The notes below the pieces were generated by a model. That model was not told where the DNA came from and did no database searches. It saw only the letters and a list, made by a program, of their open reading frames with translations. DNA of 41,083 nucleotides. Origin: Anaerolineales bacterium UBA877 (GTDB lineage: Bacteria > Chloroflexota > Anaerolineae > Anaerolineales > Villigracilaceae). The stretch lies in assembly GCA_002294405.1 (NCBI GenBank), contig DBFP01000041.1, positions 1,029 through 42,111 on the forward strand. The letters are read 5' to 3'. The translations under genes and the position numbers were made by a program. This document shows positions 4,828-22,366 of the stretch, one piece after another; within the stretch, counting starts at the first letter, position 1; the number at the start of each line of letters is the position of its first letter.

Positions 4828-6312
4828 TCAGGGGATGATATCAAATGCAGGGACTGAAACCTCAACGATCGTCCCTACACCCGGTTCGGAAGCGATGTAC
4901 AGGTCACCGCCCACCGATTCCACCCTCTCACGCATCCCTGCCAAGCCCCAGCCGCGCGGGGGGGCAAAAGATTCCACAGGGTTAAAACCAACTCCTGAGT
5001 CTTCTATTTTCATATTAATTTCCTGGAGGTTGAAAACCATTAAGATCCTGGCTTGTGATACTTGAGCGTGACGAATAACATTATGCAGGGCTTCCTGAGC
5101 AACTCTAAAGAGAACGGTTTCAATCACTGAATCAAGCCGCCGGGACTTTCCCTGAATTTCAATTGAAACATTCAATCCTGAGGTCTTGCTGTCATCCTTC
5201 AGGTAATCCAGTGCAGAAATAAGTCCCAGATCATCCAGCTGCGCCGGGCGCAGACCGTGAACCATCCGGTAGAGGCCCTTGGACATTTGCTTGCCAAGGC
5301 TTTGAAGCCTGTCGACCAGTTTAATGATTTCCGGTCGTCCGCCCAGAGTGCGGAGGGTGGCCAAATCCAGGGAAAATGCCGTTAATACCTGGGAGGTTTC
5401 ATCATGGAGCTCACGAGCGATGCGGGACCGCTCCTCCTCCTGAGCCATTACCGTGTGTCGCAGCAATTCCCGCCTCATCGCTTCGCGCCTGGTTAATTCC
5501 TGTTGGATCTGTTCCAATGCATCCAGGCGTTCTTTTTGGGCAAAAACCAACTGCCGCTGTCGTTCCTTCTCGAGGATCTGGGTGGCCCTCAAGAGGCTTA
5601 GCGTGATGAGCACAGCCAGGATAGCCCGCAAGCCTTGAATGGGGAAACCGGTCATGGTTCGAAAGGAAGTCGAGTTTAGGACCCGGGCGGGGAACATATC
5701 GATGGCGGGGACGAAAAATTGCGATAAAGCATACAATCCAAATCCGATGGCTGCCCAGGTTAGTAATATCATCACCCACCTGCGTCCGCCGACCCTGGCG
5801 CTTTGTGCTTCAGCTTGCAAGGCGAAGGCTGCAAGAAATGCACCGGGAACCGCCAACAAATAACGGGTCAAAATATCGAGAATGTTTACGAATAATGTTG
5901 TACCTGTGCGGTAGGTGAAAACACAAGATGCCAGGATTCCAATCCCGTAAATGGCCAGCGTTCCCCAACCAAAATATGTGGATATGCCCGGATTTAAGTT
6001 GTGTGCATGCAAAGTCAAGATACCGAAAAGCATCAGCGAAAAAAAAGATGCTGCCAATATTACGAGTCGAAGCCAAATAAGCCAGGCTGGCAGCTGGGTT
6101 CCCTGCGAAACAGATTGCAGCAAAAAGGCCTCCAGCCATTCATGAGCTCCATGAATCAAACCAAAGGCTGCCAGCAGAGGGAGGAAGCGTGTCTCAGCCA
6201 AAGAGGGGGAGCGTTCCGATTCAAGGGCTAGCGTGAGCCCCATGCCAAAAAAGGCCAGGCCGTAGGCAAAATATATTACCAGTAAAACCAAATCTAGAGA
6301 TTGACCAGACAT
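4828..6312 (-). CDS. Membrane sensor histidine kinase, NarX/LuxR-partner type (pair 1)
   Basis: 494 residues. About seven membrane helices fill residues 8-240, then comes a coiled coil (about 245-290). A HisKA_3 box follows with His303 in RIARELHDETSQ, then a HATPase domain with ALHNVIRHA, DSGVGF and GWGLAGMRERV. There is no separate extracytoplasmic sensor domain, so the membrane part is the likely sensor. Its start shares a YGLAFF.MGL...LE..RS...L.PLLAAFGL.H...EWLE.F pattern with the kinase at 19951, including buried His and Glu residues. There is no Shine-Dalgarno sequence before the ATG at 6312, and a TATAGT -10 element ends only 7 bases upstream, so the message may be leaderless. The signal is unknown; a redox or quinone cue is a guess. 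Confidence 0.92.
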   Translation of the reverse strand: MSGQSLDLVLLVIYFAYGLAFFGMGLTLALESERSPSLAETRFLPLLAAFGLIHGAHEWLEAFLLQSVSQGTQLPAWLIWLRLVILAASFFSLMLFGILTLHAHNLNPGISTYFGWGTLAIYGIGILASCVFTYRTGTTLFVNILDILTRYLLAVPGAFLAAFALQAEAQSARVGGRRWVMILLTWAAIGFGLYALSQFFVPAIDMFPARVLNSTSFRTMTGFPIQGLRAILAVLITLSLLRATQILEKERQRQLVFAQKERLDALEQIQQELTRREAMRRELLRHTVMAQEEERSRIARELHDETSQVLTAFSLDLATLRTLGGRPEIIKLVDRLQSLGKQMSKGLYRMVHGLRPAQLDDLGLISALDYLKDDSKTSGLNVSIEIQGKSRRLDSVIETVLFRVAQEALHNVIRHAQVSQARILMVFNLQEINMKIEDSGVGFNPVESFAPPRGWGLAGMRERVESVGGDLYIASEPGVGTIVEVSVPAFDIIP

Positions 6313-6319
6313 GTTCGCA

Positions 6320-6325
6320 ACTATA
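6320..6325 (-). promoter_or_regulatory. Probable -10 element of the kinase gene (leaderless)
   Basis: On the minus strand this reads TATAGT. The expected transcription start falls at 6312-6313, at the kinase ATG. It overlaps the edge of the TTGGG-type box at 6326-6343, which would allow autoregulation. No convincing -35 hexamer is seen. Confidence 0.4.
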
Positions 6326-6343
6326 TTGGGTATTTTACACCAA
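6326..6343. promoter_or_regulatory. TTGGG-N8-ACCAA inverted repeat (operator candidate 1)
   Basis: The half sites extend to ATATTGG (6323-6329) and CCAATAT (6340-6346). The box lies 11-34 bases before the kinase start. Its centre (6334.5) is 55 bp from the centre of the GTGAC palindrome. It is related to the boxes at 6435 and 14238, with one mismatched position in the right arm. Confidence 0.55.
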
Positions 6344-6382
6344 TATCTGTTTTATTATTGTGCACATAATCACGGATAGATT

Positions 6383-6396
6383 GTGACGAATGTCAC
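6383..6396. promoter_or_regulatory. CRP/FNR-superfamily-like palindrome GTGAC-N4-GTCAC
   Basis: The sequence GTGACGAATGTCAC has perfect 5-base arms and fits the GTGA-N6-TCAC layout of CRP/FNR family sites. It sits midway between two TTGGG boxes in the divergent region, so it could serve both directions. The same core occurs at 14194-14217. No CRP/FNR gene is in the window. Confidence 0.55.
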
Positions 6397-6434
6397 GTTT
6401 GTTTGTCTCATTTTTCACTTGCTTTTTAACCATA

Positions 6435-6452
6435 TTGGGGTTATAAACCCAA
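6435..6452. promoter_or_regulatory. TTGGG-N8-CCCAA inverted repeat (operator candidate 2)
   Basis: TTGGGGTTATAAACCCAA, with arms extending to TATTGGG (6433-6439) and CCCAATA (6448-6454). It matches the box at 14238-14255 at 16 of 18 positions. A possible -10 (TATTAA, 6458-6463) follows six bases later, so the box would lie in the promoter of the nonaheme cytochrome gene. Confidence 0.65.
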
Positions 6453-6467
6453 TAGTTGTATTAATAT

Positions 6468-6699: not shown

Positions 6700-7875
6700 A
6701 TGCGAAGGGAAAAAATAAATCTCCGGTTAAAACTCTTGATCCTGATCGGTGGATTCGGGTTGATAGCTTTGGCTTTTGTTGAGCTGATAAACCCTGTCTC
6801 AGCCTCCCCGGCAGCAAAAATAATTCAAAATACTGTTCAGGCACAAACAGGAGATCCTGATAATTCCGCCTGCTTGTTCTGCCATGGGAAGCCTGGAATG
6901 ACGCGAACACTTCCGAGCGGGGAACCGCTCTCTTTGACCATTGACTCAAACCATTTTGGCTCCTCGGCCCATAAGAGTGTTGCCTGCGTGGAGTGTCACA
7001 CAAACATATCCACGTTCCCTCACCCCGACCTCCAGGCACAGTCCCAACGCCAGTTTTCTATGGAAATGTATACCATCTGCCAGAAATGCCATGTGGATCA
7101 ATACAATAAAACCCTTGATTCTGTCCATATGCGGCAGGTAGCAGCAGGGAATACGAATGCAGCCATCTGCACAGATTGCCATAACCCGCACACACAACCG
7201 GTCATAACTGATGCGAATGGAGGTCTCCTGCCGAATGCTCGCCTCAGCATTCCTGAAATATGTGCCCGCTGTCACAGTGCAATTTACGATACATATAAGA
7301 AGAGTGTCCACGGGGCGGCTTTAACCCAGGAAGGCAACACGGATGTCCCCACCTGCATCGACTGCCATGGGGTACATAATATTGGAGATCCGACCACAAA
7401 TGCGTTTCGGCTCCAATCCCCCCAATTGTGTGCCAAATGCCATACCAATGCAGCCATAATGAACAAATATGGTATCCCCACGCAGGTGCTAAATACCTAT
7501 GTCGCGGATTTCCACGGGACAACCACAACCTTATTTGAAAAAATCACTCCTGACCAGGTAACCAATAAACCGGTCTGCTTTGACTGCCATGGAGTGCATG
7601 ATATCAAGAGGGTGGATGACCCGGTTTACGGCTTGCAAATGAAGACCAATCTGCTTAAGGCGTGCCAGCGCTGTCATCCAGACGCCAGCACCAGTTTTCC
7701 TGATGCATGGATGAGCCATTACATTCCCAGTCCCACTCATTATGCACTCGTCTATTATGTAAATATATTCTACAAGTTCTTTATCCCCACCGTAATCGGT
7801 TCAATGGGTATTTTTGTCACCAGCGATATTGTCCGCCGATTGATCGAGCGCCGTAAAGGAGTCAAGCACGGATGA
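6700..7875 (+). CDS. Nonaheme c-type cytochrome, membrane-anchored
   Basis: 391 residues. A signal/anchor helix (11-35) is followed by nine CXXCH heme sites starting at Cys58, 96, 127, 157, 188, 219, 244, 293 and 322. The spacing is wide and CHGVH occurs twice (222-226, 296-300). A C-terminal helix at about 350-375 ends in a basic tail, so the heme domain should be tethered outside the membrane at both ends. The ATG has AGGAG upstream. Its stop overlaps the next start as ATGA, pairing it with the b561-type protein much as multiheme electron carriers pair with membrane cytochrome b in formate dehydrogenase- or Hmc-like complexes. No catalytic residues of NrfA or Hao type are evident. Role inferred as electron transfer. 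Confidence 0.88.
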   Translation: MRREKINLRLKLLILIGGFGLIALAFVELINPVSASPAAKIIQNTVQAQTGDPDNSACLFCHGKPGMTRTLPSGEPLSLTIDSNHFGSSAHKSVACVECHTNISTFPHPDLQAQSQRQFSMEMYTICQKCHVDQYNKTLDSVHMRQVAAGNTNAAICTDCHNPHTQPVITDANGGLLPNARLSIPEICARCHSAIYDTYKKSVHGAALTQEGNTDVPTCIDCHGVHNIGDPTTNAFRLQSPQLCAKCHTNAAIMNKYGIPTQVLNTYVADFHGTTTTLFEKITPDQVTNKPVCFDCHGVHDIKRVDDPVYGLQMKTNLLKACQRCHPDASTSFPDAWMSHYIPSPTHYALVYYVNIFYKFFIPTVIGSMGIFVTSDIVRRLIERRKGVKHG

Positions 7876-9068
7876 GTAAAAAGGCCATCATGCAGCAACC
7901 CGACGCAACCAAAGAACCAGTTCACAAATTCGAAAGATTCCACTGGACACAACGTGTAGAACATGCCGTCCTGCTGACCTCTTTTTCCCTGCTGGGAATC
8001 ACGGGCTTACCCCAGAAATTTTCAACCAGCGGATGGGCGCAAGGCTTGATCGGTTTCTTTGGCGGAATTGAGACCACGCGTTTGATCCATCATGTATGCG
8101 CCGTGGTTATGATAATCCTTGGGATCTATCACATTCTGGACATTGGTTACAAGATTTTTGTCCGTCGAACGCGATTGAGTATGCTCCCGGGCATCCAGGA
8201 TGTGAAAGACGCTTTCCAGGCATTTCTATACAACCTGGGGCTTGGCAAAAAACGCCCCCAGATGGGACGCTATACCTTTGAAGAAAAGGCGGAATATTGG
8301 GCGTTGATCTGGGGAACAGCGATCATGGCTGTAACCGGTTTCATAATGTGGAATCCAATCATCACTGCCAGGTTCCTGCCGGGTGAAATCATCCCGGCAT
8401 CCAAGGCGGCGCACGGCGGAGAGGCCCTGCTGGCGGTCATGGCGATTGTCGTCTGGCATATGTACGGCGTTCATTTGAAGCGGTTCAACAAGGCCATGTT
8501 CACCGGGAAACAGACTGAAACCGAGATGCTCCATGAGCATCCGCTCGAATTGGCCGATATCAAGGCGGGGATTGCTGAACGACCGGTGGACCCAAAAACC
8601 CTGCGCAAGCGTCAGGCGGTTTATTTCCCCGTTGCGGGGGTGTTGGCGGTTGCCATGCTCTTCGGCACTTACGGCTTTATCAGCGGAGAAAAGACCTCCA
8701 TCACCACGGTTCTGCCGATTTCCAACCCGGTAACCGTATATGTGCCACAAACACCCACACCGATCCCAACGGTGAGCGTCCCGGTGGTACCTTCCGGCAC
8801 GCTGTCCTGGGATGCCAACATCGGAATCATTTTCCAAGCCAAATGCGCCCTGTGCCATAATGCCTCCCTGCCCACAAAGGGATTGTCATTTGCCACATAT
8901 GTCGAAACCATGCTTGGTGCGAGCGATGGTCCGGTAATCCGACCCGGCGATGCTGCCAACAGCAAACTTGTGATACTGCAATCCGCCGGCGGTCATCCCG
9001 GACAATTAAGCCCGGATGAATTGACCGCGGTAAAAAATTGGATCAACGCTGGCGCACTTGAGAAATAG
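7872..9068 (+). CDS. Cytochrome b561-type membrane protein with C-terminal c-heme domain
   Basis: 398 residues. The first 205 form a four-helix diheme cytochrome b like formate dehydrogenase gamma/hydrogenase cytochrome b, with candidate heme histidines in FHWTQRVEH, RLIHHVC..., GIYHILD and VVWHMYGVHLKRF. A fifth helix (about 252-271) is followed by a Pro/Thr linker (about 290-308) and an 85-residue domain with one CALCH site (Cys325). That domain, with 'IFQAKC..CH...GL...Y...........PVI.PGD...SKL', resembles the planctomycete-type cytochrome c domain and recurs at the ends of two later proteins. The likely job is electron exchange between menaquinone and the nonaheme partner. The c-heme tail on this family is unusual. 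Confidence 0.88.
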   Translation: MSKKAIMQQPDATKEPVHKFERFHWTQRVEHAVLLTSFSLLGITGLPQKFSTSGWAQGLIGFFGGIETTRLIHHVCAVVMIILGIYHILDIGYKIFVRRTRLSMLPGIQDVKDAFQAFLYNLGLGKKRPQMGRYTFEEKAEYWALIWGTAIMAVTGFIMWNPIITARFLPGEIIPASKAAHGGEALLAVMAIVVWHMYGVHLKRFNKAMFTGKQTETEMLHEHPLELADIKAGIAERPVDPKTLRKRQAVYFPVAGVLAVAMLFGTYGFISGEKTSITTVLPISNPVTVYVPQTPTPIPTVSVPVVPSGTLSWDANIGIIFQAKCALCHNASLPTKGLSFATYVETMLGASDGPVIRPGDAANSKLVILQSAGGHPGQLSPDELTAVKNWINAGALEK

Positions 9069-9127: not shown

Positions 9128-9145
9128 TTGTCCGTGGAGGAGTTA

Positions 9146-10843
9146 ATGAAAAGATTTTTTACCTGGTTGAAACATTTCTTTTTCCCACCTGCCAATGCCC
9201 CGCTTTCAATCCGGATTCTTCCTTACGCCATCCTGGGGATCCTGACCATCGGAGTTCTTGTTGGAGGGGCATACGGCTGGCAGTACACAAACTCTCCCTC
9301 CTTCTGCGGTACCACCTGCCATACCATGCCCCCCGAATACGCTGCTTACCAGGTTTCACCACATGCCCAGATCGCCTGCGTGGAATGCCACATCGGGAGG
9401 GAATTCATTGGCAACCAGATATTCCGTAAGGCTGGCGACATCAGGCATCTTATTGCCACCACATTCCATACATATGAATATCCCATCATGGCCACCAGCA
9501 TGCGCCCGGCACGCGAAACTTGTGAAACGTGTCACTCGCCTCAGAAATTTTCGGATGACAGCCTGCGCCTGATCTCCCATTTCACCCCCGATAAAATAAA
9601 TACCCCGTACAGCATAACCCTGGTTCTTAAAACCGGGGGAGGCACCAAACGCGCCGGCCTGGGGCGCGGCATCCACTGGCACATTGAGAACAAAGTCTAT
9701 TACTATGCCACGGATGCAAATGAACAGACCATCCCGTTCGTCCGGGTTGTCAATGACGATGGCAGCGTGACCGAATATACAGATGTATCGTCCAATTTCG
9801 ACCCCGCTAGCATAGATCCCAGCAAGCTGCATGAAATGGACTGCATCACCTGCCATAACCGCATCACCCATCGGACTTATACCCCGGAGGAATCCGTGGA
9901 CACATCCCTCGGTCTCGGTAAAATTTCCAACCGCATTCCCGAGATTCGACTTAAAGGCGTGGAAGTTCTGCGGGGATCTTACGCCACCCAAAGCGACGCA
10001 CTCGCCGGGATCGCCGCGCTTGTAGATTATTACAAAACCAATTATCCAGATTTTTACAACGCTAACCAGGAAATGGTCCGATCGGCGGTTACTGATTTGC
10101 AAACGATTTTCAAAAATTCAGTCTTCATCGATCAAAAAGTGAGCTGGGATACACACCCGAATAATATTGGTCACATTAACAGCCCGGGTTGTTTCCGCTG
10201 TCACGATGGGAAACACCTGGATACCCAACAGCAAGCCATCCGGTTGGAATGCAACCTTTGCCACTCCATTCCTGTTGAAACCAGCGCCCAAGACCTGACC
10301 AGCAGGATTGAGATTAATCGAGGTCCAGAACCCAATTTGCATTTAAACCCCAATTGGATCAGCCTGCATCACAGCGCATATGATGCTACCTGTTCCAACT
10401 GCCATACCACCGGGGACCCGGGTGGGACTTCCAATACATCCTTTTGTTCCAATAGCGCCTGTCATGGGACGATCTTTACCTATGCCGGTTTCGATGCTCC
10501 TGCGCTGCGCGCCATTCTCGAGAAGCAACTCCCCATACCTACGCCTCCAGCAGTTACGCCCGTACCCGTAAGTGGTACACCGACTTTCGTCGATAATATT
10601 GCACCGATTTTTGCAGCCCGCTGCACTATGTGTCACAGCGGTTCCGGTGCCCTGGCGGGACTCGATCTTTCCACATATAGTGGGATAATGAAAGGCAGCC
10701 AAAATGGTGCGGTGATCGTACCGGGTGATTCAGCCGGAAGTAAATTGATCCAGGTGCAAAGTGGAAAACACTTTGCCAACTTGAGCGGACCGGAACTGGA
10801 AATGGTCAAACAGTGGATCGATGCCAATGCACCAGAAAAATAA
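9146..10843 (+). CDS. NapC/NirT-like multiheme cytochrome c with extra heme domains
   Basis: 565 residues from the ATG at 9146, preceded by GGAGGAG; the in-frame TTG at 9128 lies before that site. A single helix (23-45) is followed by a NapC/NrfH-like start, SFCGTTCHTMPPEY, then CVECH. Heme sites begin at Cys54 (CX3CH), 78, 126, 233, 349, 369, 416, 434 (CX4CH, CSNSACH) and 493: nine in all, seven canonical. A Pro/Thr linker (about 463-480) leads to the same c-heme tail as the b561 protein. NapC relatives carry electrons from quinol to periplasmic reductases. The central 135-345 stretch has long heme-poor parts I do not recognise. It follows a hairpin and precedes the Rieske gene by 34 bases. 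Confidence 0.87.
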   Translation: MKRFFTWLKHFFFPPANAPLSIRILPYAILGILTIGVLVGGAYGWQYTNSPSFCGTTCHTMPPEYAAYQVSPHAQIACVECHIGREFIGNQIFRKAGDIRHLIATTFHTYEYPIMATSMRPARETCETCHSPQKFSDDSLRLISHFTPDKINTPYSITLVLKTGGGTKRAGLGRGIHWHIENKVYYYATDANEQTIPFVRVVNDDGSVTEYTDVSSNFDPASIDPSKLHEMDCITCHNRITHRTYTPEESVDTSLGLGKISNRIPEIRLKGVEVLRGSYATQSDALAGIAALVDYYKTNYPDFYNANQEMVRSAVTDLQTIFKNSVFIDQKVSWDTHPNNIGHINSPGCFRCHDGKHLDTQQQAIRLECNLCHSIPVETSAQDLTSRIEINRGPEPNLHLNPNWISLHHSAYDATCSNCHTTGDPGGTSNTSFCSNSACHGTIFTYAGFDAPALRAILEKQLPIPTPPAVTPVPVSGTPTFVDNIAPIFAARCTMCHSGSGALAGLDLSTYSGIMKGSQNGAVIVPGDSAGSKLIQVQSGKHFANLSGPELEMVKQWIDANAPEK

Positions 10844-10877: not shown

Positions 10878-11363
10878 ATGGAAAATGATGAAAAGAAAGA
10901 AATATCGCGGCGCGATTTTATGAAAATCGCCATAGGCGCAGTTGGAGGATTGATCGGCCTGGGATACGGGATCCCGGCAATCGCCTACGTGATAACTCCC
11001 GCCACGGCGAAAACCCAGGCCCAGCAATGGATCCAGCTGGGGGCTGTATCCAAAATCGAACTGGGAACACCGACATTATTCAAGGTTAACGTTAAACGTC
11101 AAACCGGCTGGATAGTTAACCAGGAAGAACTCTCCATTTATGTGATCACCGAAGACGGACGTGAATTTGTCGCCCTGTCAAACGTGTGCACCCACCTTGG
11201 ATGCCGAATTCGCTGGGTGGCGGACCAAAATAAATATTTCTGCCCATGCCATAATGGCGTTTTTGACAAGCAGGGTAATGTAGTCTCTGGTCCTCCGCCT
11301 CGACCGCTTGACAGGTACCAAACCAAGGTTGAGAACGATCAATTGTTCATCCTGGGAGGTTGA
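10878..11363 (+). CDS. Rieske iron-sulfur protein of a bc-type complex
   Basis: 161 residues, the usual size. The N-terminus has the twin-arginine motif SRRDFMK followed by a hydrophobic anchor (about 16-40). Cluster ligands are Cys104 and His106 in CTHLGC and Cys122 and His125 in CPCH. Cys109 and Cys124 form the expected disulfide. The protein accepts the first electron from quinol and passes it to a c-type heme. The ATG has AGGAG eight bases upstream. The gene runs directly into cytochrome b and subunit IV, so these three form the core of a quinol:cytochrome c oxidoreductase. Confidence 0.96.
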   Translation: MENDEKKEISRRDFMKIAIGAVGGLIGLGYGIPAIAYVITPATAKTQAQQWIQLGAVSKIELGTPTLFKVNVKRQTGWIVNQEELSIYVITEDGREFVALSNVCTHLGCRIRWVADQNKYFCPCHNGVFDKQGNVVSGPPPRPLDRYQTKVENDQLFILGG

Positions 11364-11365
11364 TC

Positions 11366-12034
11366 ATGCTGGCAAAATTTGGCAATTGGTTGGAAGAACG
11401 TGTCGGTTGGAAACCTGTATGGGAAACCATTTTCCTGCGAAAAGTTCCAAGGGTAAATTGGTTCTATACCCTCGGGAGCGCAACCCTGTTTGTCGCAGTT
11501 AACCAGGCGGTTACCGGAATCCTCCTGACGTTGTATTATGTTCCCACCCCTGATCATGCTTATGACAGCGTTCAATATATAACCACCCAGGTTGCCGGCG
11601 GCTGGCTCATTCGCGGCCTGCACCATTGGGGGGCGAGCGTCATGGTGGTGCTGGTAGTTTTACACATGCTCAGAGTAATCATATATGGGGCGTACAAATA
11701 CCCACGCGAAGTCACCTGGATGACCGGTGTCGTGCTTCTGCTGGTGGTAATAGGTTTTGGATTTACCGGGTATCTCCTGCCGTGGGATCAGAAGTCTTAT
11801 TGGGCTACCACCGTGGGCACACGCATTGCTGGAGTGGCACCGTTTATCGGGAATTGGATCTTACGGGTGATGCGCGGTGGTGACGATCTTTCTGCGGTGA
11901 CCCTGGCCCGCTTTTTTGGTGCCCATGTATGGGTGTTGCCGGTCACCCTTTTACTCCTCATCGGAACCCATCTCTTCCTGGTGATCCGGAATGGGATCAG
12001 TGAGATTCCCAAGCGTGAGGGAGGCAAGCAATGA
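11366..12034 (+). CDS. Cytochrome b, b6-type, of the Rieske/cytochrome b complex
   Basis: 222 residues with four helices. The ATG at 11366 sits five bases after GGGAGGT and two bases after the Rieske stop. Heme ligands are His86/His100 and His187/His202; the 14- and 15-residue steps match b6-type rather than mitochondrial-type cytochrome b, and the split from subunit IV agrees. VQYI, GWLIR and TGYLLPWDQ are family signatures. Position 35, the cysteine that binds the extra heme ci in b6f and in related Firmicutes complexes, is Thr here (WFYTLGS), so only the two b hemes are expected. The stop overlaps the next start as ATGA. Confidence 0.95.
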   Translation: MLAKFGNWLEERVGWKPVWETIFLRKVPRVNWFYTLGSATLFVAVNQAVTGILLTLYYVPTPDHAYDSVQYITTQVAGGWLIRGLHHWGASVMVVLVVLHMLRVIIYGAYKYPREVTWMTGVVLLLVVIGFGFTGYLLPWDQKSYWATTVGTRIAGVAPFIGNWILRVMRGGDDLSAVTLARFFGAHVWVLPVTLLLLIGTHLFLVIRNGISEIPKREGGKQ

Positions 12035-14133
12035 ACGAACAGGAGAAAAAGGAATCCCTGGAGAAATACCAGGAAGCCAAGAAAAAAGGCGTTCCCTTTT
12101 TTCCAGACATCATATTTTCCGATGCGCTGGTCTCCTTCGGCATTTTTCTATTGTTGATCGCGCTGGCCTATTTCTTTGGCGCCCCCCTTGAGGCGCGCGC
12201 CAACCCAGCCGATACCACTTATACCCCCCGCCCTGAATGGTATTTCCTGTTCCTGTTCCAGCTTCTAAAATACTTTCCCGGAAAGCTTGAAGTGGTGGGT
12301 GTAATCGTCATTCCAACCCTTGCGATCCTGACCCTTTTCCTGCTGCCCTTCCTGGACCGAGGCGCGCGCCGTCACTTTCTTAACCGACCAATCGTAACCG
12401 GGGTGACCCTTATTGCGGCAGCCGGAATCCTGTTCCTGACCGTGCAAGCAGCCCGGGAAAGCCCTGCGCCCACAGGGATCTCCTCGGGTGACCAAACTGC
12501 GGCATTGTACGCGGCAAATTGTGCTCCCTGTCACGGCGCGTCCATTATTGTCCCGCCGGGAACCAACCTGCATGATGTGATCGCCCAGGGAAAACATGAA
12601 GGGATGCCTGCATGGGGCGCAGATCTTTCGACGGATCAAATTGACGCCCTGGTGGGGTTCATCTTGTCTCCCGGTGGGAGTGCACTGTTTACCCAAAACT
12701 GCGGAAGCTGCCATGAAGCCACGGAATTGGTCGCCCTAAACCCGCTGGAACTTAAAAAAGCGTTGGACGAGGGCACAGCTTATGCGCCTCACAGTAAAGT
12801 GAAGATCCCAGACTGGACTTCCGTAATGACCACCGAGGAACGGTCCCGGCTGCTTAATTTCCTGGTGGCACCGGATGGGGCAAGGTTATTTGCAACCAAC
12901 TGTTCCTCCTGCCACGGCCAATCGGTAGCCTTCACGGGTTCTGAAAGTGAGCTGCATACATTGATCAGCCAGGGAGGGCTTCACCTGGAGATGCCGCCAT
13001 GGAAAGAAAAGCTCACCTCCGAACAGATCGATGCCCTGGCACGCTTCGCGGTAGACCCGGCAGGGAACACATCGACCAAGGCATTGTTCGACCAGACCTG
13101 CTCCTCCTGTCACGGCAGCCGCATCCCCGTGGAGACAAATGTTGACCAGGCGCGTCAAGCCATCTCAACAGGTGGGGCGCACAAAACCATGCCCATTTGG
13201 GGCCAGATCCTGACCGCTGAACAACTGGATGCCTTGGTCAAATATACCCTGCAGGCAGCCCAGGGAACATCCCTGACCACCGGACGCGACTTGTTCGTCC
13301 AGAATTGCGCAGCATGCCACGGAGAATTCGGGGAAGGCGGACCCAACCCGGCCCTGCCCAGCTTTATCATTCCACCGATCAGCTCCTCGGAATTCCTGAA
13401 AACACGGGACGATACCACGCTGACCGCGATCATTACCCAGGGACAGCCAAATTTTGGCATGTCACCATTTGGATCCGCATTTGGAGGCCCCCTGGAAAAT
13501 GATGCCATTGATGCCATCGTAGCCTACATGCGGTCCTGGGAAGCCAACCCCCCGGTTGAGGCACCTCCAACGGTACCCACACCCACTCCCGGCGCCCCGG
13601 CTCTCAGCGGGACGGAGATCTACTCCCAGTTATGCTCGCAATGTCATGGGCTGTCAGGTGAAGGTGGAAGCGGTCCAGCCTTGAACAGCGAAGCATTTAA
13701 GCAGGGAAGGACCGATCAGGAAATCTTCGATACCATTAACCTGGGAAAAGCATCCACACCCATGATCGCCTGGGGAAAATTCCTTTCCGTGGATCAAATC
13801 AACCAACTGGTTCAATACCTGCGCGGGTTAAGCAGCAAACCCGCCAGCGGGACCCCTTCATTCGTCACGGATGTACTGCCGATCTTCCAGGCAAAATGCA
13901 GCGTGTGTCATGGAACGCTGGGAGGCTGGACAGCTTCCGATTATTCCAGCGTTATGACCAGCGGTGCGCACGCACCTGTGATCAAGGCGGGAGACGCGGA
14001 CAACAGCCTGCTGGTCCAAAAGCTCTTGGGAACCCAAAAGGTGGGTTCCTTGATGCCGCCTACGGGGAAATTGTTAGACGCGGAGGTACAACTCATCATC
14101 AACTGGATCAAGGCTGGGGCACCGAATAACTAA
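12031..14133 (+). CDS. Subunit IV of the b6-type complex fused to seven cytochrome c domains
   Basis: 700 residues. The first 140 are a three-helix subunit IV with the Qo-site motif PEWYF (68-72). Seven c-heme sites follow at Cys164, 224, 291, 357, 426, 535 and 623. Domains 1-4 are compact repeats of about 65 residues with the pattern '..NC..CHG...MP.W...L...Q.DAL'. Domains 5-6 look like class I cytochrome c with G.GG..P.L and GMSPF or PMIAW ligand loops. Domain 7 is the planctomycete-type tail shared with the b561- and NapC-like proteins. In repeat 2 the expected axial Met is Ile259 (KIPDW). Subunit IV fusions with one or two c-hemes are known in Gram-positive and related bacteria; seven is exceptional. 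The protein likely replaces separate cytochromes as acceptor for the Rieske protein. Confidence 0.93.
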   Translation: MNEQEKKESLEKYQEAKKKGVPFFPDIIFSDALVSFGIFLLLIALAYFFGAPLEARANPADTTYTPRPEWYFLFLFQLLKYFPGKLEVVGVIVIPTLAILTLFLLPFLDRGARRHFLNRPIVTGVTLIAAAGILFLTVQAARESPAPTGISSGDQTAALYAANCAPCHGASIIVPPGTNLHDVIAQGKHEGMPAWGADLSTDQIDALVGFILSPGGSALFTQNCGSCHEATELVALNPLELKKALDEGTAYAPHSKVKIPDWTSVMTTEERSRLLNFLVAPDGARLFATNCSSCHGQSVAFTGSESELHTLISQGGLHLEMPPWKEKLTSEQIDALARFAVDPAGNTSTKALFDQTCSSCHGSRIPVETNVDQARQAISTGGAHKTMPIWGQILTAEQLDALVKYTLQAAQGTSLTTGRDLFVQNCAACHGEFGEGGPNPALPSFIIPPISSSEFLKTRDDTTLTAIITQGQPNFGMSPFGSAFGGPLENDAIDAIVAYMRSWEANPPVEAPPTVPTPTPGAPALSGTEIYSQLCSQCHGLSGEGGSGPALNSEAFKQGRTDQEIFDTINLGKASTPMIAWGKFLSVDQINQLVQYLRGLSSKPASGTPSFVTDVLPIFQAKCSVCHGTLGGWTASDYSSVMTSGAHAPVIKAGDADNSLLVQKLLGTQKVGSLMPPTGKLLDAEVQLIINWIKAGAPNN

Positions 14134-14312: not shown

Positions 14313-14390
14313 CGTAGGAGGTGCTCACACCCATAATCCAATTATGTGTTTTTTTTCAGTAAAACAAATTCATATAAGGAGAATGTAGAA

Positions 14391-15446
14391 ATGTCGATCA
14401 AAAAATTACTGTTAGTTGTTGCTGTTCTTTTGGCTGCGGCTTTCGTGCTGGCAGCCTGTGCCGGTCCTGCCGGCCCCGCTGGCCCTGCGGGTCCGAAAGG
14501 TGACACCGGTGCTGCGGGTCCCGCTGGCGCTGCTGGAACAATTCCAGCTGCTGCTGACTTAACCTGCACCCAGTGCCATAATGACACCACCCTCCTCGAT
14601 GGCAAGTTCTTTGCCTGGGAAGGTTCCCGCCATGGAACTGCTGGCGTAGTATGGGAAGAGGAAGCGGGCGTCCAGGCGTGTGACGGCTGCCACGAAGGCT
14701 CCTCATTCATTCAACGAATTGCTGCCGGGCAGGATTTCGCAGCCTACGGTTCAGCCAAGGATGTCGTCCTCCCGGATGCCACCCCGCAGACCTGCCGTAC
14801 CTGCCACGTGATCCACACCACCTATACTAAGGATGACTTCGCTCTGCGGACCCTCGCACCTGTAGCGATGGTAGTCAGCGGCCAGACCTTCGATAAGGGT
14901 ATGGGAAACTTGTGCGTCAACTGCCACCAGGCTCGACGCTATATGGCCAACTTCCCCAACAAGGACGCAGCTGGTAATGTCGTTGCGGGAGAATACAAGG
15001 CTACCGTGCGCTTTAACCCGCACTTAAGCAACCAGTCCGACTTTATGCTTGGTGTTGGCGGTGGCGGCACCGTGACCGGATCTCCGAGCGCCCACTACAC
15101 CATGACCACGGATGCATGCGTCACCTGCCATCTTGGGCCGACCAACAATCATACCTTTGATGCGACTGTGTCTGCCTGCGTAGCCTGCCATGCAGATGCC
15201 ACCAACACCGATATTAATGGCGCAGTGACCAAAATCCAGGCGAAGTACGATGAACTCAAGGCTGGATTAACCAAGGCTGGTTTGCTGGATGCAACTGGCG
15301 CAGCAGTACCCGGAGTTTATGCCGAGGCCAAGGCCTTCCCGCTGTGGGTCTACGGCTACATAACAGAGGACGGCAGCATGGGCGTGCACAATCCAAAGTA
15401 CGCCAATGACCTGCTCGACGCTGCCATCACCGGATTACCCAAGTAA
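14391..15446 (+). CDS. Hexaheme cytochrome c lipoprotein with collagen-like segment
   Basis: 351 residues from the ATG at 14391 (AAGGAG eight bases upstream; a longer in-frame start has none). A signal peptide ends in the lipobox LAAC (Cys23). Gly-X-Y triplets follow (G25-G49, GPAGPAGPAGPKGDTG and on). The body has six CXXCH sites at Cys59, 97, 135, 175, 243 and 263, and the end contains GVHNPKY. The last 80 residues have no heme site. The lipid anchor and collagen-like stalk would hold the heme domain away from the membrane surface. It has its own regulated promoter and is flanked by terminators, so it is a single-gene unit. Function inferred as a surface electron carrier; a reductase role is not excluded. 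Confidence 0.9.
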   Translation: MSIKKLLLVVAVLLAAAFVLAACAGPAGPAGPAGPKGDTGAAGPAGAAGTIPAAADLTCTQCHNDTTLLDGKFFAWEGSRHGTAGVVWEEEAGVQACDGCHEGSSFIQRIAAGQDFAAYGSAKDVVLPDATPQTCRTCHVIHTTYTKDDFALRTLAPVAMVVSGQTFDKGMGNLCVNCHQARRYMANFPNKDAAGNVVAGEYKATVRFNPHLSNQSDFMLGVGGGGTVTGSPSAHYTMTTDACVTCHLGPTNNHTFDATVSACVACHADATNTDINGAVTKIQAKYDELKAGLTKAGLLDATGAAVPGVYAEAKAFPLWVYGYITEDGSMGVHNPKYANDLLDAAITGLPK

Positions 15447-15627: not shown

Positions 15628-16881
15628 TCAATCTCCCGCCACGGGGACTGCCCCTATTACCTTCGCATCAGTAACATGGACTTTTGTCGAGTTGTGGTCC
15701 ACCACTCTCAGATAGCGTACTCCAAGGGAGAATGAAAGCAAACCGTAACTGATGATCCCTGCACCGGTGAGGATTTCGATGACGGAGGGAAAATAAGCCC
15801 CAGAGTATGCCACGGCAGGTTCACCGGGAAGATAGGAGAGGGTGATCAACAGTCCCGAAATATTCGTATCCCAACGATAGGCCACCACTCCACCAACCAC
15901 AAGCGCCAGGGCGAGCATGCGCCAGAGCGGCAGGGAACGGGTGCGCTTGTTAAGCAGCAGGATGATCGGAACCACGGCGCCCAGGAGCATTTCACCGATC
16001 CAAAAGTTGAATGACAGGTTACCTGCGGTCAACTGCGCCAATCCTTCCGTCCGGCCAGGTTCGTAGGTATAAGTCATGGAAAGGGCATCCCAAAATCGGA
16101 AATACAGATAAACAACCAAAACCCAGCCGATGATTTGTGCGACCCGATCCAAAATATTATTGTCAACGTTGGCACGTTTGGTCAGGCGGACTGATAGCAT
16201 GGATGCAAGGATGGTAAGCGACATGCCTCCCGCGATGGCGGAAACGATGAACAGCACTGAAATGTCGGGCCGGTACCAAAGCGGGCGCGCCTTGAGAACG
16301 CCGTACAGTGCTCCCAGGGAAGACTGGTGCAGCATGGAAAGGGCGAGTCCAGCAATCGCAAGATAGGGAGCGAAATGGTGGATGCGCGACATCCTGTCTG
16401 CCAACTTTGGCCAGTGAGAACGCAGCCAGCTAAAATTGGCAAATATGGGCAATGCTTCCAGCGCCAGTACCCCCAGGTACAGGGTCACGCACATGGTCAC
16501 TTCCCAGAGCAATGAATGCTTGTTCCAGAATATCAAGGAATGCCAGAAGCGGTCCGGGCGCCCAATGTCCAGCAGCAAGGTCAGCACGGCCATGGTGTAG
16601 CCGATCAAACCGATGAAAGTGGCGGTGCGCGCCACCGGCTGGTAGCGCTTAAGATTGAGCAGGTAAACCACTGCGCACAGGCTGAAAGCCCCTGCACTCA
16701 TGGCGATGGAAGATAGATCGATGGTGATCCACAATCCCCAGGGGATCATGTCGGTCAGGTGGGTCAATGAGAGACCCTTCCACAGGACCATTACGCCAGC
16801 TACAACACCAGCGACCAGCAAAACCGCCAGCCCGCCCACCCATGCCATCCAGAGGGAGAATTTGGGAAGTTTAATTTTCAT
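15628..16881 (-). CDS. nrfD: NrfD/PsrC-family quinone-interacting membrane protein
   Basis: 417 residues, about ten helices. The conserved region IPWGLWITIDLSSIAMSAGAF, the later DIGRPDRFWH and SLLWEV are typical of NrfD/HybB/DsrP-type subunits, which have no heme of their own and exchange electrons and protons with menaquinone. GAGGAG lies nine bases before the ATG, which overlaps the ferredoxin stop by four bases. With the ferredoxin and octaheme genes it forms a cytochrome-FeS-NrfD module as in Nrf, Qrc, Hmc and alternative complex III systems. No molybdopterin or other catalytic subunit is present. Confidence 0.9.
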   Translation of the reverse strand: MKIKLPKFSLWMAWVGGLAVLLVAGVVAGVMVLWKGLSLTHLTDMIPWGLWITIDLSSIAMSAGAFSLCAVVYLLNLKRYQPVARTATFIGLIGYTMAVLTLLLDIGRPDRFWHSLIFWNKHSLLWEVTMCVTLYLGVLALEALPIFANFSWLRSHWPKLADRMSRIHHFAPYLAIAGLALSMLHQSSLGALYGVLKARPLWYRPDISVLFIVSAIAGGMSLTILASMLSVRLTKRANVDNNILDRVAQIIGWVLVVYLYFRFWDALSMTYTYEPGRTEGLAQLTAGNLSFNFWIGEMLLGAVVPIILLLNKRTRSLPLWRMLALALVVGGVVAYRWDTNISGLLITLSYLPGEPAVAYSGAYFPSVIEILTGAGIISYGLLSFSLGVRYLRVVDHNSTKVHVTDAKVIGAVPVAGD

Positions 16882-17648
16882 GACAGCGGCTCCTCAGTGG
16901 CTGATAAATAATAGACTCGTGGCGAAGTACCCAGGTCCTCGCGCAGGCGATAGGAAGTTCGTCCTTTTAGCAATTTACTTACATTTGAATCGGGATCGTT
17001 CAGGTCACCGAACAGCCGCGCGCCCACCGGGCAGACCACTGAACAAGCTGGAGTGGCATCTTCATCAATGCCGGGAGTTAAACCCAGGGAAAGACCGCGG
17101 TCTATGCGTTGAAAGCAGAAGGAACATTTCTCTACAACACCCCGAGGGCGGCGTTCGATCTCAGGCTGACCCCACTCGGGAACGGATGGGTTCGGGCCAT
17201 CAAAATATTTCCAATTGAAAGAGCGGGCACCATAAGGGCAGGCGATTTCACAGTAACGGCAGCCAATGCAGCGGTCATAGTCCATCTTCACGATCCCATC
17301 AGGACGGTATGTGCTGGCGCGGACCGGGCAGACATCCACGCAGGGGGCGTGGGCACACTGCATGCACGGTCGGGCGATGAAGACATCCTGTGCTCCGACG
17401 GTGCCTGTCTTGGTAACCACATTCCAGGATATTTCAGGTGGGACATCATTGTGAGCCCGGCAAGCCAGGGTGCAGTATCCGCAACCCGTGCATTTGGATT
17501 GATCAATCACCATGACCCATTGGCGACCACCTGATTCGGCTGTTTCCAGGGCTTGAGCCCGACGAATGACCTGCGATCCAGCCAGGACGGTTGCACCGAC
17601 CGCAGTGAGCTTGATAAAATCCCGGCGGGTGATCTTTTTTTGAGTCAT
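16878..17648 (-). CDS. nrfC: Four-cluster ferredoxin subunit with twin-arginine signal
   Basis: 256 residues. The signal TRRDFIK plus a hydrophobic stretch (11-30) indicates export by Tat as a folded cluster protein. Sixteen cysteines are arranged as in DmsB/NrfC/TtrB: 53-56-59-63, 95-98-103-107, 127-130-133-137 and 175-178-202-206, enough for four [4Fe-4S] clusters. It would form the wire between the exported octaheme cytochrome and the NrfD-type membrane subunit. Its start overlaps the octaheme stop as ATGA, and its stop overlaps nrfD in the same way. Gene symbol by analogy only. Confidence 0.92.
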   Translation of the reverse strand: MTQKKITRRDFIKLTAVGATVLAGSQVIRRAQALETAESGGRQWVMVIDQSKCTGCGYCTLACRAHNDVPPEISWNVVTKTGTVGAQDVFIARPCMQCAHAPCVDVCPVRASTYRPDGIVKMDYDRCIGCRYCEIACPYGARSFNWKYFDGPNPSVPEWGQPEIERRPRGVVEKCSFCFQRIDRGLSLGLTPGIDEDATPACSVVCPVGARLFGDLNDPDSNVSKLLKGRTSYRLREDLGTSPRVYYLSATEEPLS

Positions 17649-18598: not shown

Positions 18599-18625
18599 AG
18601 TGGTATCTCCTCGCAGAAAATATGG

Positions 18626-18961
18626 TTAATTTGAAACCGGTGCAGGTGCCAGTCGGAAAACATCGCAATCCAGGCAACCCTCCCTCAACCCGCCATTTCT
18701 CGATCGAAATACCTGCCAGCAAGGTATTTTGGATTGGCTGTAAGCAAGGCAATTTTTCCGGTTCTCCTCGGAACACCCTTTAATATCCCAGCAGGGCTGG
18801 CGGGGTGAAATGACCGGTAACGCAAGTGCTTCCTTCTGCCAGTGTTCATCCAGGCGGCGAAGGAGGAAAAACACAATCCCGGTCACGATGAGGGGGAGGC
18901 CAATCCGGAGTAGAAGCCCAATAATAAAAGTCAAGATCGGATCCATTGGCGGATCAGACAC
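18626..18961 (-). CDS. Small membrane protein with cysteine-rich CW motif domain
   Basis: Up to 111 residues. One helix (about 10-34) is followed by a soluble part with CWDIKGC, NCLAY, IPCWQ and GCLDCDVF. This CW..KGC.....CPAY..PCW arrangement is a recurring small domain in anaerobe sensor and redox proteins and probably binds metal or a cluster. The start is uncertain: a GTG at 18961 abuts AAGGAG with no spacer, and an ATG at 18946 lies 14 bases from it. Either start is coupled to the stop of the 39-residue gene upstream (18954). It precedes the octaheme gene by 27 bases. The function is unknown; a redox-responsive accessory role is possible. Confidence 0.7.
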   Translation of the reverse strand: MSDPPMDPILTFIIGLLLRIGLPLIVTGIVFFLLRRLDEHWQKEALALPVISPRQPCWDIKGCSEENRKNCLAYSQSKIPCWQVFRSRNGGLREGCLDCDVFRLAPAPVSN

Positions 18962-19297: not shown

Positions 19298-19328
19298 CCG
19301 GGAAAATTTTGGGAGGAGTGACCCCGTG

Positions 19329-19979
19329 CTAAGGCTTGATGATCCCCTTGCGAATGGCGTAGCGAACCAACTCGGAGCGGGAGTGCAATCCAAGTTTATT
19401 CATGATATTTTCGCGATGTCGGGCAACGGTTTTATTGGAAATAACCAAAGCCTGGGCAATCTCCTCATTATCCGCCCCCTCTGCAAGGTAGCGCAGGACT
19501 TCCTGTTCACGATCGGTCAGACCGTCAAGAGTGGAAGCTGCATCCGTGCCTCGATCCTGGGATAGATAATCCTTCACCAATAATTTTGCCATGGAGGGAT
19601 ACAGGTATACCTCCCCGGCAGCCGCGGTGCGGATGGCGGTTAATAATTCCTCAGGCGCGGCCCGTTTTGGAACGTAGCCTCCAGCACCCGCTTCCAGCAT
19701 CTTGAAGAAGTACTCTTCGTCCTCGTGGATGGTCAGGGCTACCACGGCAACCTCGGGGTTGGTGCGTTTTATTTCGCGGGTGGCATCAATTCCCGATAGA
19801 TCTGGCAGACCGATATCCATCAGGACCACATTTGGTTTTAACTGGCGAACGGCTTCCAGGGCTTCCCTGGCAGTCCCGGCTTCCCCAATGATCTCAACAT
19901 CGTTCTCACTGGCAAGCAGCATGCGCAAACCGGAACGGACAACCTGGTGGTCATCCACCAGCAGCAGGCGAATTTTCAT
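19329..19979 (-). CDS. NarL/FixJ-type response regulator (pair 2)
   Basis: 216 residues from the ATG at 19979, where AGGAGG is six bases upstream; the ATG two codons earlier touches the ribosome site and longer forms run through the kinase gene. The receiver has Asp9/Asp10 and phospho-acceptor Asp55 (VVLMDIGLPD). The LuxR-type helix-turn-helix has LTDREQEVLRYLAEGADN and NKTVARHRENIMNKL. The gene overlaps the kinase by 29 bases. It is close to the regulator at 4104 across its length, including the recognition-helix region, so both may bind similar DNA sites. Confidence 0.94.
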   Translation of the reverse strand: MKIRLLLVDDHQVVRSGLRMLLASENDVEIIGEAGTAREALEAVRQLKPNVVLMDIGLPDLSGIDATREIKRTNPEVAVVALTIHEDEEYFFKMLEAGAGGYVPKRAAPEELLTAIRTAAAGEVYLYPSMAKLLVKDYLSQDRGTDAASTLDGLTDREQEVLRYLAEGADNEEIAQALVISNKTVARHRENIMNKLGLHSRSELVRYAIRKGIIKP

Positions 19980-21438
19980 CTGCATCCTCCTGAAGATACG
20001 GGATGGATACTTCAACTTCCGTCCCTTGACCGGATCCTGAATGGACCTCAAACCTGCCGCCCAACAGCGAGGTGCGTTCCTCCATCCCTTTAAGACCCCA
20101 CGAAACACGTTTGGCTGATCTGATCGTCTCTATATCGAACCCTCGTCCATCATCCAGCACCCTGATAATTACCGATTCATCCGTGTAGGATAAAACTACC
20201 AGGATGTAAGTTGCCTGGGCGTGTTTGACCACATTTGTCAGCGCCTCCTGGGCAATACGGAAGAGGGCGATTTTTACTGGAGAAGCAACTTCCCGTTCTT
20301 CCCCCTGTATCTCCACATGAATTTCCAACTTGGTCCTTTCCTGAAGGGTGCTGGCGTACCAGCGCAAAGCAGAAGAGAGACCCAGGTCATCAAGATGAGA
20401 TGGACGCAAATCCGCGATCAGACGCTGCAGTTCATCAAGCGAATGGGCGGTGAGCAGCTCCAATTGGTGCAGGTTCTGTTTGGCGTGATCCATTTTAGAG
20501 GTTCGCAGCGAACCGGTAAGCCCGCGCAACCCAAGGCCGATGGCGGTCAAGGCTTGACCGGTTTCATCATGAAGCTCACGAGCGATCCTTTGGCGTTCCG
20601 ATTCCTGGGCAGCCACAACCCGCTTGTATAATTCCCCGCGCAGCCGCTCACGTTGCTTTGCTTCCTTTAGTCTTGCTTCCTGCAGACTGCTGATTTGCCT
20701 GTCATTTTCAACCTGGAAAGCGCGCAGGAATCGGATGACAAAGAAGGCAGCCAATCCTGCCATGACGGCCCGGAATAATTGAACCGGGATTCCAGACAGG
20801 TCATTAAAAAGAACTTCGTTGATGAAATTCGAAGGGGGCAGGGGAGAAGAGCGGACGAACAACTGTCCAACCAGGCCGTACCAGCTGAAGGCAACCGCGG
20901 CCCATAATGCATCCCTGCCAAATGAGAACAACCTGGCCTGCCGAAAGACACGCTGCTGAATAACCAGTCCAATGGCTGCAAGCAGAGCGGAGGGTATGGC
21001 GAGCGAATACCGCGTCCAGACGTCACTAACATCCCAAAGCAGGGGAAGGGAATATTGTCCTTTTAACAGGATCAGGCCAAATACCCACACCGCTTCCAAT
21101 CCAAGCGGAACCAGGAGGATCAAACGCCTTGCGGTCTTAGAAACGACCAAAAGGTAACTGCCAAAGGCAGCCAGAGATATAAATGAAAATGCCAGAGTCG
21201 CCAGCCTGATTCCCGATAACCAATCAGTGGAGATGTGCCCACCCTGGAGACCAATCACTTCGAACATCTCCAACCATTCGTTGACGGCATGGACCAAACC
21301 AAAAGCAGCCAGGGGACGCAAAGCGCGGCGAAGGCGGGCATCGGAAGACCGCCCGCCTTCGAGCATCACCAACAGGCCCATGCTGAAAAATGCCAATCCA
21401 TAGAAAAAATAGATCGGGATGATGGGAGAAATATTCAC
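19951..21438 (-). CDS. Membrane sensor histidine kinase (pair 2), paralogue of the kinase at 4828
   Basis: 495 residues, built like the first kinase. A multi-helix membrane region (about 8-240) begins YFFYGLAFFSMGL and contains AAFGLVHAVNEWLE. A coiled coil follows, then the HisKA_3 box with His290 in RIARELHDETGQ, and a HATPase domain with ALTNVVKHA, DDGRGFD and WGLKGMEER. It lies 25 bases after the zinc-ribbon protein gene and overlaps its regulator. The shared sensor region suggests both kinases detect a similar membrane signal with different thresholds or specificities. Confidence 0.93.
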   Translation of the reverse strand: MNISPIIPIYFFYGLAFFSMGLLVMLEGGRSSDARLRRALRPLAAFGLVHAVNEWLEMFEVIGLQGGHISTDWLSGIRLATLAFSFISLAAFGSYLLVVSKTARRLILLVPLGLEAVWVFGLILLKGQYSLPLLWDVSDVWTRYSLAIPSALLAAIGLVIQQRVFRQARLFSFGRDALWAAVAFSWYGLVGQLFVRSSPLPPSNFINEVLFNDLSGIPVQLFRAVMAGLAAFFVIRFLRAFQVENDRQISSLQEARLKEAKQRERLRGELYKRVVAAQESERQRIARELHDETGQALTAIGLGLRGLTGSLRTSKMDHAKQNLHQLELLTAHSLDELQRLIADLRPSHLDDLGLSSALRWYASTLQERTKLEIHVEIQGEEREVASPVKIALFRIAQEALTNVVKHAQATYILVVLSYTDESVIIRVLDDGRGFDIETIRSAKRVSWGLKGMEERTSLLGGRFEVHSGSGQGTEVEVSIPYLQEDADENSPAAGG

Positions 21439-21463
21439 GACACTGCGCCTTTAAGCAATGGGA

Positions 21464-22366
21464 CTATGCTTCTTTCTGCAACCGTATCCCACATGTTCTG
21501 CAAAACACATCCCCCGCCTGGGCGCGCTTTCCGCATTGATGGCAGTAGATCTCTTCGGTTTCGATTTCAGGTTTTGGCTGTGGCCTGTGCTTGCGCGTAA
21601 CCGTTCCCCGGCGTGTACCGTTTTTCCAAAGATACAAACCACCCACGATGCCGATAGCGAGCAATATTACTCCAGCCCCTGCCAGCAACCAGGGGAGGAG
21701 AGCGCTCATGGTGATTCGTCCCGGAGTACTCCCACTGATCGGCTGGGTTGGTTGAACTGGAAGCCCGGTGGTACTCAAGTCATCCGTGGGTTTTTTATAG
21801 TCTGCAGTCAGCGTTATTGATTGTCCCGCGGTCAGAACCTGGGAAGTGGATTTGTAATAGGTGAACCCATCTTGATTCACTCCGGTTGAAGCAAGGACGG
21901 GGACAATTGCCAGATCTGTCGCCCCAACAGGTTGCTGAAATACAATAGAAAAATCATCTGTCGCATAGTCACCAGCCCAATTGAAGACGATGTGACGGGA
22001 GGTCTTGTTTTTTATCAAGACATCGTAATATTCCACCTGCACATCAGCCAAACTGGTAGTAATCGTCAATTCCGCCCATGATCCATCCACGGTCCGATCA
22101 TACGGTGTATTAAGGAGTCCCTTCACCGGATCGTTGACGGCAATAGCAAAGACTTCCGCTTGCGCAGGGATTCGCAGGTGAAGGGTGACCGGAAACTTGG
22201 CGTCGGAAGGTAAAACAAGGTGATATATTACCAAAACAGCTGGCCGGTCATATTCCGGCCAGATATCCACGGTCACTGATTTCAGGCGTAAACCACTCTG
22301 CGCTCGTACCGGGAAGGAAATCCAAACTGCCACCAGGAGCACCACAATGGCAATGAGTTTCCTCAT
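21464..22366 (-). CDS. Exported protein with C-terminal helix and zinc ribbon
   Basis: About 300 residues. A signal peptide (1-23, ending VRAQS) is followed by a beta-rich domain of about 190 residues that I cannot assign, a low-complexity linker, and a helix at about 233-256. A cytoplasmic tail ends in a zinc ribbon, YCHQCGKRAQAGDVFCRTCG. The second of two adjacent ATGs (22366) is preferred because GGAGGT then lies five bases upstream. Its stop is 25 bases from the second kinase, so it is probably cotranscribed and may be a signal partner or accessory sensor of that kinase. Such a link is inferred from position only. Confidence 0.75.
   Translation of the reverse strand: MRKLIAIVVLLVAVWISFPVRAQSGLRLKSVTVDIWPEYDRPAVLVIYHLVLPSDAKFPVTLHLRIPAQAEVFAIAVNDPVKGLLNTPYDRTVDGSWAELTITTSLADVQVEYYDVLIKNKTSRHIVFNWAGDYATDDFSIVFQQPVGATDLAIVPVLASTGVNQDGFTYYKSTSQVLTAGQSITLTADYKKPTDDLSTTGLPVQPTQPISGSTPGRITMSALLPWLLAGAGVILLAIGIVGGLYLWKNGTRRGTVTRKHRPQPKPEIETEEIYCHQCGKRAQAGDVFCRTCGIRLQKEA

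Follow-up and report, generated by a model that had tools for sequence, protein, structure and literature searches.

A multiheme cytochrome block in DNA of an Anaerolineales relative: a candidate respiratory outlet towards the cell exterior

A locus that encodes 40 c-type hemes and, at first sight, no reductase raises the question of where its electrons go. It is found in a stretch of 41,083 nucleotides of contig DBFP01000041.1 (positions 1,029 to 42,111, hereafter the window), in which a preliminary description, made from the sequence alone, had seen a possible new respiratory island without a catalytic subunit, suited to long-range electron transfer, perhaps to the cell surface, or serving reductases encoded elsewhere. 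We consider it fairly probable that the block is a respiratory outlet for extracellular electron transfer (EET), directed towards the exterior of an Anaerolineae-like bacterium; gene G, which encodes a hexaheme lipoprotein, probably supplies the catalytic subunit that had seemed to be missing.

The genes lie in two facing cassettes between ccmEFHG and panE/panB, with a kinase/regulator pair at either end (Table 1). The rightward cassette reads A (nine hemes), B (a b561 cytochrome with one heme), C (nine hemes), D (Rieske protein), E (cytochrome b6), F (subunit IV with seven hemes) and G (six hemes), and the leftward one H (NrfD), I (ferredoxin), J (eight hemes) and K. The 40 heme sites that had been described, distributed as 9, 1, 9, 7, 6 and 8 over six open reading frames, were recovered as 38 CXXCH motifs together with one CX3CH and one CX4CH, both in C, which has seven CXXCH and carries the CX3CH at residue 60 next to the membrane helix. 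The cysteines and histidines of these two atypical motifs are invariant across 61 aligned sequences. CXXCH is absent from every other stop-to-stop open reading frame of at least 80 codons within the window, and in 2000 shuffled versions of each of the six proteins the mean number of CXXCH was at most 0.043 and the maximum one; the shuffled controls and the recurrent neighbourhood described below rule out that the heme block arose by chance or artefact. Ligand candidates were counted as non-motif histidines at a conservation threshold of 60%. In A the nine motif histidines are invariant, and among 51 sequences nine further histidines reach a conservation of 98% or more, while C has 11 further conserved histidines for nine hemes (85 sequences), J nine for eight (14 sequences) and G six for six (17 sequences). 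Pfam agrees with the b561, NrfD/iron-sulfur, Rieske, cytochrome b6/subunit IV and ccmEFHG genes that had been named, and with the two kinase/regulator pairs, which are paralogous as proposed (36.6% identity between the kinases, 42.7% between the regulators). The block had been taken to begin at 4828, which leaves the first regulator gene (4104 to about 4799) outside.

Judged by its sequence, the window DNA comes from a relative of the Anaerolineales, and the host cell is presumably single-membrane. The nearest named contig found, L001 of the metagenome-assembled genome (MAG) Anaerolineales Chersky.4_57, encodes a C protein with about 80% identity and shares the gene order from ccm to F. A profile built from 26 C homologs yielded 80 loci, all labelled Chloroflexota. 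The class sampled, to which the window may itself belong, was that of G002 (the genome of locus L002), with 298 genomes; the C gene is present in 88 of them at E below 1e-90 and in 92 at E 1e-20, four of the 92 matching by the C-terminal domain only. Neighbourhoods were examined in 118 loci (114 distinct); the 40 taken from the class rank with the highest scores of the 88 C-bearing genomes and are no random sample. Four class loci lie on contigs already present in the first 80 loci, and are excluded from the counts over 54 and 116 loci and kept in those over 118; L078 and L110 have no C at threshold, and L081-L090 were left out of the counts. Flanking DNA of at least 5 kb on both sides is available in 54 distinct loci. 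Among these, A was found within 8 kb of C in 34 and a further protein with at least five CXXCH in 47; A-B-C are directly contiguous in 15, NrfD is present in 14 and bc in eight. In 39 of these loci a protein of the G, decaheme (T10h) or collagen-stalked octaheme (O8h) families lies within 8 kb of C. The contents of this slot vary between relatives, from G-type hexahemes, decahemes and collagen-stalked octahemes to other multihemes and giant proteins of 21-32 hemes. Four loci, L019, L020, L035 and L094, likewise have the leftward cassette of H-I-J-K, regulator and kinase facing the rightward one; L094 is on a contig of 4.4 Mb. To judge from gene content, the neighbourhoods are modular, the relatives keeping the quinol-oxidising core and varying the large exported multiheme protein beside it. 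The giant cytochromes, with 21-32 CXXCH, are located upstream of A in L117 (13345-19013), L118, L121 and L130, a place held in other relatives by G or its counterparts.

The protein of gene G, which most likely starts at 14391 where Met16 of the open reading frame is at least 90% conserved, has an export signal with a lipobox-like LAAC and would be exposed at the cell surface. The best fits of its model are to surface cytochromes from two Gram-positive iron reducers: OcwA, the surface terminal reductase of Thermincola potens (6i5b), and the S-layer undecaheme cytochrome of Carboxydothermus ferrireducens (6qvm). The structure search ranks OcwA, 6qvm and NrfA first and lists no MtrC or OmcA, and OcwA is therefore preferred over MtrC/OmcA as the counterpart of G. 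The NrfA-like C-terminal heme domain of G and its C-terminal helices match the C-terminal part of OcwA, and the export signal with lipobox and a presumed Gram-positive-type setting are shared with both surface cytochromes, whereas G has six hemes instead of nine, is without the N-terminal c554-like tetraheme part, and has a collagen-like stalk following the lipobox. All 16 G relatives and 25 of 28 octaheme relatives contain collagen-like runs, and the stalked octaheme that occupies the same slot in L040 matches OcwA at E 4.2e-19. A remote kinship between G and MtrC may exist: an MtrC chain was the second match in one comparison (E 0.016) and G passes the domain model PF22113 with 35.9 bits against a cut-off of 30, though in no single stretch, while the decaheme OmcA/MtrC family model TIGR03507 gave 24 bits against a cut-off of 209.

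The same fold could serve a terminal reductase of a small soluble acceptor, such as nitrite, hydroxylamine or a sulfur oxyanion, acting through the heme at the NrfA/OcwA active-site position and fed by the quinol modules. We regard this as unlikely. G has no PF02335 match at E 0.001, and all six motifs are CXXCH with none of the form CXXCK, which is the usual form in NrfA, if not the only one; it fits the surface cytochromes better than NrfA, and its slot holds unlike multiheme proteins in the relatives. A strong NrfA match is found elsewhere in 24 of the 60 C-bearing genomes searched, and the nitrite turnover described for OcwA is about one per minute (PMC6703420). G as a catalytic NrfA is rejected at the family level only (PF02335, CXXCK). 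The earlier statement that nothing in the block resembles NrfA likewise stands for families, the sole PF02335 match in the window Pfam scans being a sub-threshold one of 20.3 bits in J, and falls for folds, where the predicted structure of 14346-15446 groups with OcwA and NrfA.

No known catalytic subunit is a constant neighbour of C just outside this layout, because molybdenum enzymes, NrfA and the OTR-family octaheme are seldom or never close to it. Open reading frames for molybdenum enzymes were found near C in two loci, L027 (4.4 kb, a fragment) and L031 (8.2 kb), by a search with 20 seeds that would miss unlike enzymes. Genome-wide searches covered 60 of the 88 C-bearing genomes. Molybdopterin oxidoreductases are present somewhere in all 60 and also in 11 of 14 control genomes (among the matches listed), and their presence therefore says little. 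Beyond the 24 strong NrfA matches, a 25th is a weak fragment; NrfA is on the contig of C in four cases, the nearest about 81 kb away, and otherwise on another contig, so that it is possibly a neighbour across a contig gap. In one locus, L026, an octaheme assigned by Pfam to PF11783, an OTR-related family, and a 7-heme/b561 fusion lie side by side about 1.2 kb from C, and L032 has a gene pair of like size, judged by size alone. In L026 (12890-18943) this octaheme, the 7-heme/b561 fusion and a sulfur transporter/rhodanese gene lie beside decaheme-C, a possible sulfur-oxyanion branch.

These counts bear on the idea that the block is a quinol-to-cytochrome relay for reductases or oxidases encoded elsewhere in the genome. 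Molybdopterin oxidoreductases in every C-bearing genome searched and NrfA in 24 would give such a relay partners, and F has class-I cytochrome domains with conserved Met, of the kind that serve to feed oxidases. A relay, however, needs no exported stalked lipoprotein beside the core, yet 47 of the 54 loci have a further large multiheme protein near C, and the control genomes have molybdenum enzymes too; we find it improbable. Of the two possibilities left by the preliminary description, long-range transfer to the surface thus gains from the kept core, the varied exported multiheme protein and the fold that G has in common with surface reductases, and the service unit is rated lower.

For the EET outlet, electrons would come from the quinol pool, and four candidate quinone modules can be distinguished instead of the two first described: A+B (6700-9068), C with its NapC/NrfH-type N-terminus (9128-10843), DEF (10878-14133) and HIJ (15628-18598). 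A+B look like CbcL of Geobacter split in two, by features rather than by sequence comparison with the Geobacter protein. CbcL is described as having nine bis-His hemes and a six-helix di-heme b domain (PMC9129911); A+B have nine c-hemes, nine further conserved histidines (a count only) and an FdnI-like b domain, but form two overlapping genes instead of a single polypeptide, with an extra monoheme domain on B and the helices divided, five predicted in B and one at the C-terminal end of A (hydropathy). Conserved in B are His31, 73, 87, 181, 196 and 201, and CXXCH325 with His375.

The C gene most likely starts at 9146, its homologs being usually 564-565 residues long. The N-terminus matches PF03264 at E 1e-8 and NrfH at E 9.8e-10 and has one membrane helix, as in NapC/NirT-like membrane-anchored proteins. 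ImcH is defined by NapC-like similarity, an atypical CX3CH beside the membrane helix and 5-9 CX2CH (PMC6295460). C shows all of these, with seven CX2CH, but has one membrane helix against three in the Geobacter protein, and possesses in addition a CX4CH and, at the C-terminus, a FoxE-like monoheme domain; the ImcH homolog of Anaerolinea thermophila is also reported with one membrane helix (PMC6295460). The full model of C (mean pLDDT 71.7, heme-rich parts under 50) gave no Foldseek match at E 0.001, and NrfH is not among its listing, which excludes nothing; the sole clear structural match was that of the C-terminal domain to FoxE. With tblastn, C matched nothing in plasmids. A profile of the last domain, compared with 26 window proteins, found B at E 9.5e-30 and F at E 6.2e-19 and no other below E 1. 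As distal ligand, the terminal domains of B and C probably use His and that of F Met, and the homology of the three domains suggests that all dock to one common carrier. Reverse flow, in which electrons from Fe(II), a cathode or a partner cell would be taken up to reduce quinone, is very unlikely, as ImcH-type proteins were tied solely to quinol oxidation as of 2018 (PMC6295460) and the FoxE-like heme domain is a matter of fold, not of function.

DEF correspond to a bc1/b6f complex in the Rieske motifs, the b6-type subunit with conserved His and the subunit IV with PEWY, and differ in the seven heme c domains fused to subunit IV in F. HIJ resemble Qrc/Hmc in the NrfD-type subunit, the four-cluster ferredoxin and the multiheme c, but J is an octaheme with a C-terminal helix and a QrcB-like subunit is missing, there being no PF00384 match to this molybdopterin-like subunit among 35 scanned window proteins. 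H reaches 226.5 bits with the QrcD model, below the curated cut-off of 570, and a PDB sequence search with it gave no match at E 0.01. The ImcH-, CbcL- and bc-type modules lie at separate loci in Geobacter, while comparable quinol modules are placed together in this window. ImcH, CbcL and CbcBA of Geobacter are reported to serve different acceptor potentials (PMC12307469).

In the proposed path, menaquinol would give up its electrons at the membrane to one of several modules, CbcL-like (A+B), ImcH-like (C), Rieske/cytochrome-b (DEF) or Qrc/Hmc-like (HIJ), the two kinase pairs choosing between them by redox state. The terminal single-heme domains of B, C and F would hand the electrons to the common carrier, and from there they would go on to G, lipid-anchored and kept off the membrane by its collagen-like stalk, which would pass them to an external acceptor, e.g. 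Fe(III)/Mn(IV) minerals, humics or a partner cell.

Several points weigh against such an outlet. No wall-spanning carrier was identified within the window. In 7 of the 54 loci no further large multiheme protein was found, and A and B are both near C in only 28. A, B, C, bc and NrfD are all together in only 3 of 116 loci (L004, L010 and L020), many loci being cut by contig ends, although pieces of the layout recur as cassettes. The likeness of C to ImcH and of A+B to CbcL is a match of features, made without the Geobacter sequences themselves, and a 2018 survey counts one ImcH homolog and no CbcL homolog in Chloroflexi (PMC6295460). As modelled, the fold of G is also NrfA-like and may admit a soluble acceptor. 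OcwA is described as having open heme sites despite sufficient histidines and as reducing nitrite slowly (PMC6703420), and the six-for-six histidine count of G is therefore no proof of an all-bis-His wire. Finally, the decaheme profile (25 sequences) has no OcwA match at E 0.1, its best match being a nine-heme cytochrome at E 0.057, and the kinship of the decahemes with OcwA therefore hangs solely on the decaheme-G profile match (hhalign 99.8%, 312 columns), which may be inflated by the common CXXCH motifs; one decaheme protein had no PDB sequence match at E 0.01.

Outside the cassettes' heme proteins, K adjoins J and a regulator in relatives as well, and the zinc-ribbon protein recurs between kinase 2 and panE in several of them. 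Elsewhere in the window, 35482-37539 encodes a 685-residue protein without any Pfam match.

Table 1. Coordinates of the predicted genes in the window and the basis of their assignment
Feature	Position	Strand	Basis
ccmG, ccmH, ccmF, ccmE, cytochrome c maturation	206..4047	-	Pfam AhpC-TSA, CcmH, CcmF_C, CcmE; order kept beside the block in L001, L004, L031
Response regulator 1, NarL/LuxR type, likely start about 4799	4104..4865	-	Response_reg + GerE
Sensor histidine kinase 1, six predicted membrane helices	4828..6312	-	HisKA_3, HATPase_c; helix prediction
A: nonaheme cytochrome c, C-terminal membrane helix, like the c-type half of CbcL	6700..7875	+	9 CXXCH
B: b561/FdnI-like membrane cytochrome b + C-terminal monoheme domain	7872..9068	+	PF01292; TIGR01583 below cut-off
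C: NapC/NrfH/ImcH-like nonaheme quinol dehydrogenase (predicted) + C-terminal monoheme domain	9128..10843	+	likely start 9146
D: Rieske iron-sulfur protein	10878..11363	+	PF00355; Cys/His of both cluster motifs kept in 10 sequences
E: cytochrome b6-type subunit, 4 helices	11360..12034	+	PF00033 E 8.5e-53; His conserved in 10 sequences
F: subunit-IV-like membrane part (PEWY motif) fused to seven heme c domains	12031..14133	+	PF00032, Cytochrome_CBB3 x5; 7 CXXCH
G: hexaheme lipoprotein, collagen-like G-X-Y stalk; candidate surface terminal reductase	14391..15446 (open reading frame from 14346)	+	6 CXXCH
H: NrfD/QrcD-type membrane quinone subunit	15628..16881	-	PF03916; top NCBIfam QrcD, below cut-off
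I: ferredoxin subunit, four [4Fe-4S] sites	16878..17648	-	Fer4 families; 16 Cys conserved in 15 sequences
J: octaheme cytochrome c, C-terminal membrane helix	17645..18598	-	8 CXXCH; Cytochrome_C554 and c7; helix prediction
K: small one-helix Cys-rich protein, two CW pairs	18626..18961	-	no Pfam/NCBIfam match; K family in 11/118 loci
Response regulator 2, likely start about 19985	19329..20108	-	Response_reg + GerE
Sensor histidine kinase 2, kinase 1 paralog	19951..21438	-	36.6% identity
Exported/membrane zinc-ribbon protein, recurrent neighbour	21464..22369	-	Zn_ribbon below cut-off; family in 16/118 loci

Among the open-access papers listed by the literature searches, none describes the cluster or collagen-stalked multiheme proteins. 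The claim of a new island without a catalytic subunit is nevertheless weakened, the core gene being common in the class, the parts resembling ImcH, CbcL, bc and Qrc/Hmc, and G being a plausible terminal reductase; the parts are of kinds known separately from metal-breathing bacteria, and what is new is probably their arrangement. Anaerolineae are abundant in sediments and digesters. A Chloroflexota isolate is reported to perform EET (PMC5808234), mineral or electrode respiration in the phylum being otherwise indicated, in the account available, by genome and biofilm hints (PMC7399161), and the available portions of two metagenome papers that screen iron genes by FeGenie or Mtr markers do not mention the cluster (PMC9671151, PMC11650866).

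As a tentative and still doubtful extension, the cassettes might together make up an entire EET system for a single-membrane cell, with a distinct design. Several quinol outlets (ImcH-, CbcL- and bc-type), gathered in one island and probably set for different acceptor potentials, three of them with the same FoxE-like terminal domain, would deliver electrons to an exchangeable surface head, which may be a hexaheme, decaheme, octaheme or giant 21-32-heme protein; heads of the hexaheme and octaheme kinds would reach through the wall on trimeric collagen-like stalks. If the outlet is real, A-B-C with a surface head would be a searchable marker of EET in as many as three out of every ten genomes in this class (C in 88 of 298 sampled), and hemes on collagen-like stalks would be a new route for electrons across a monoderm wall.

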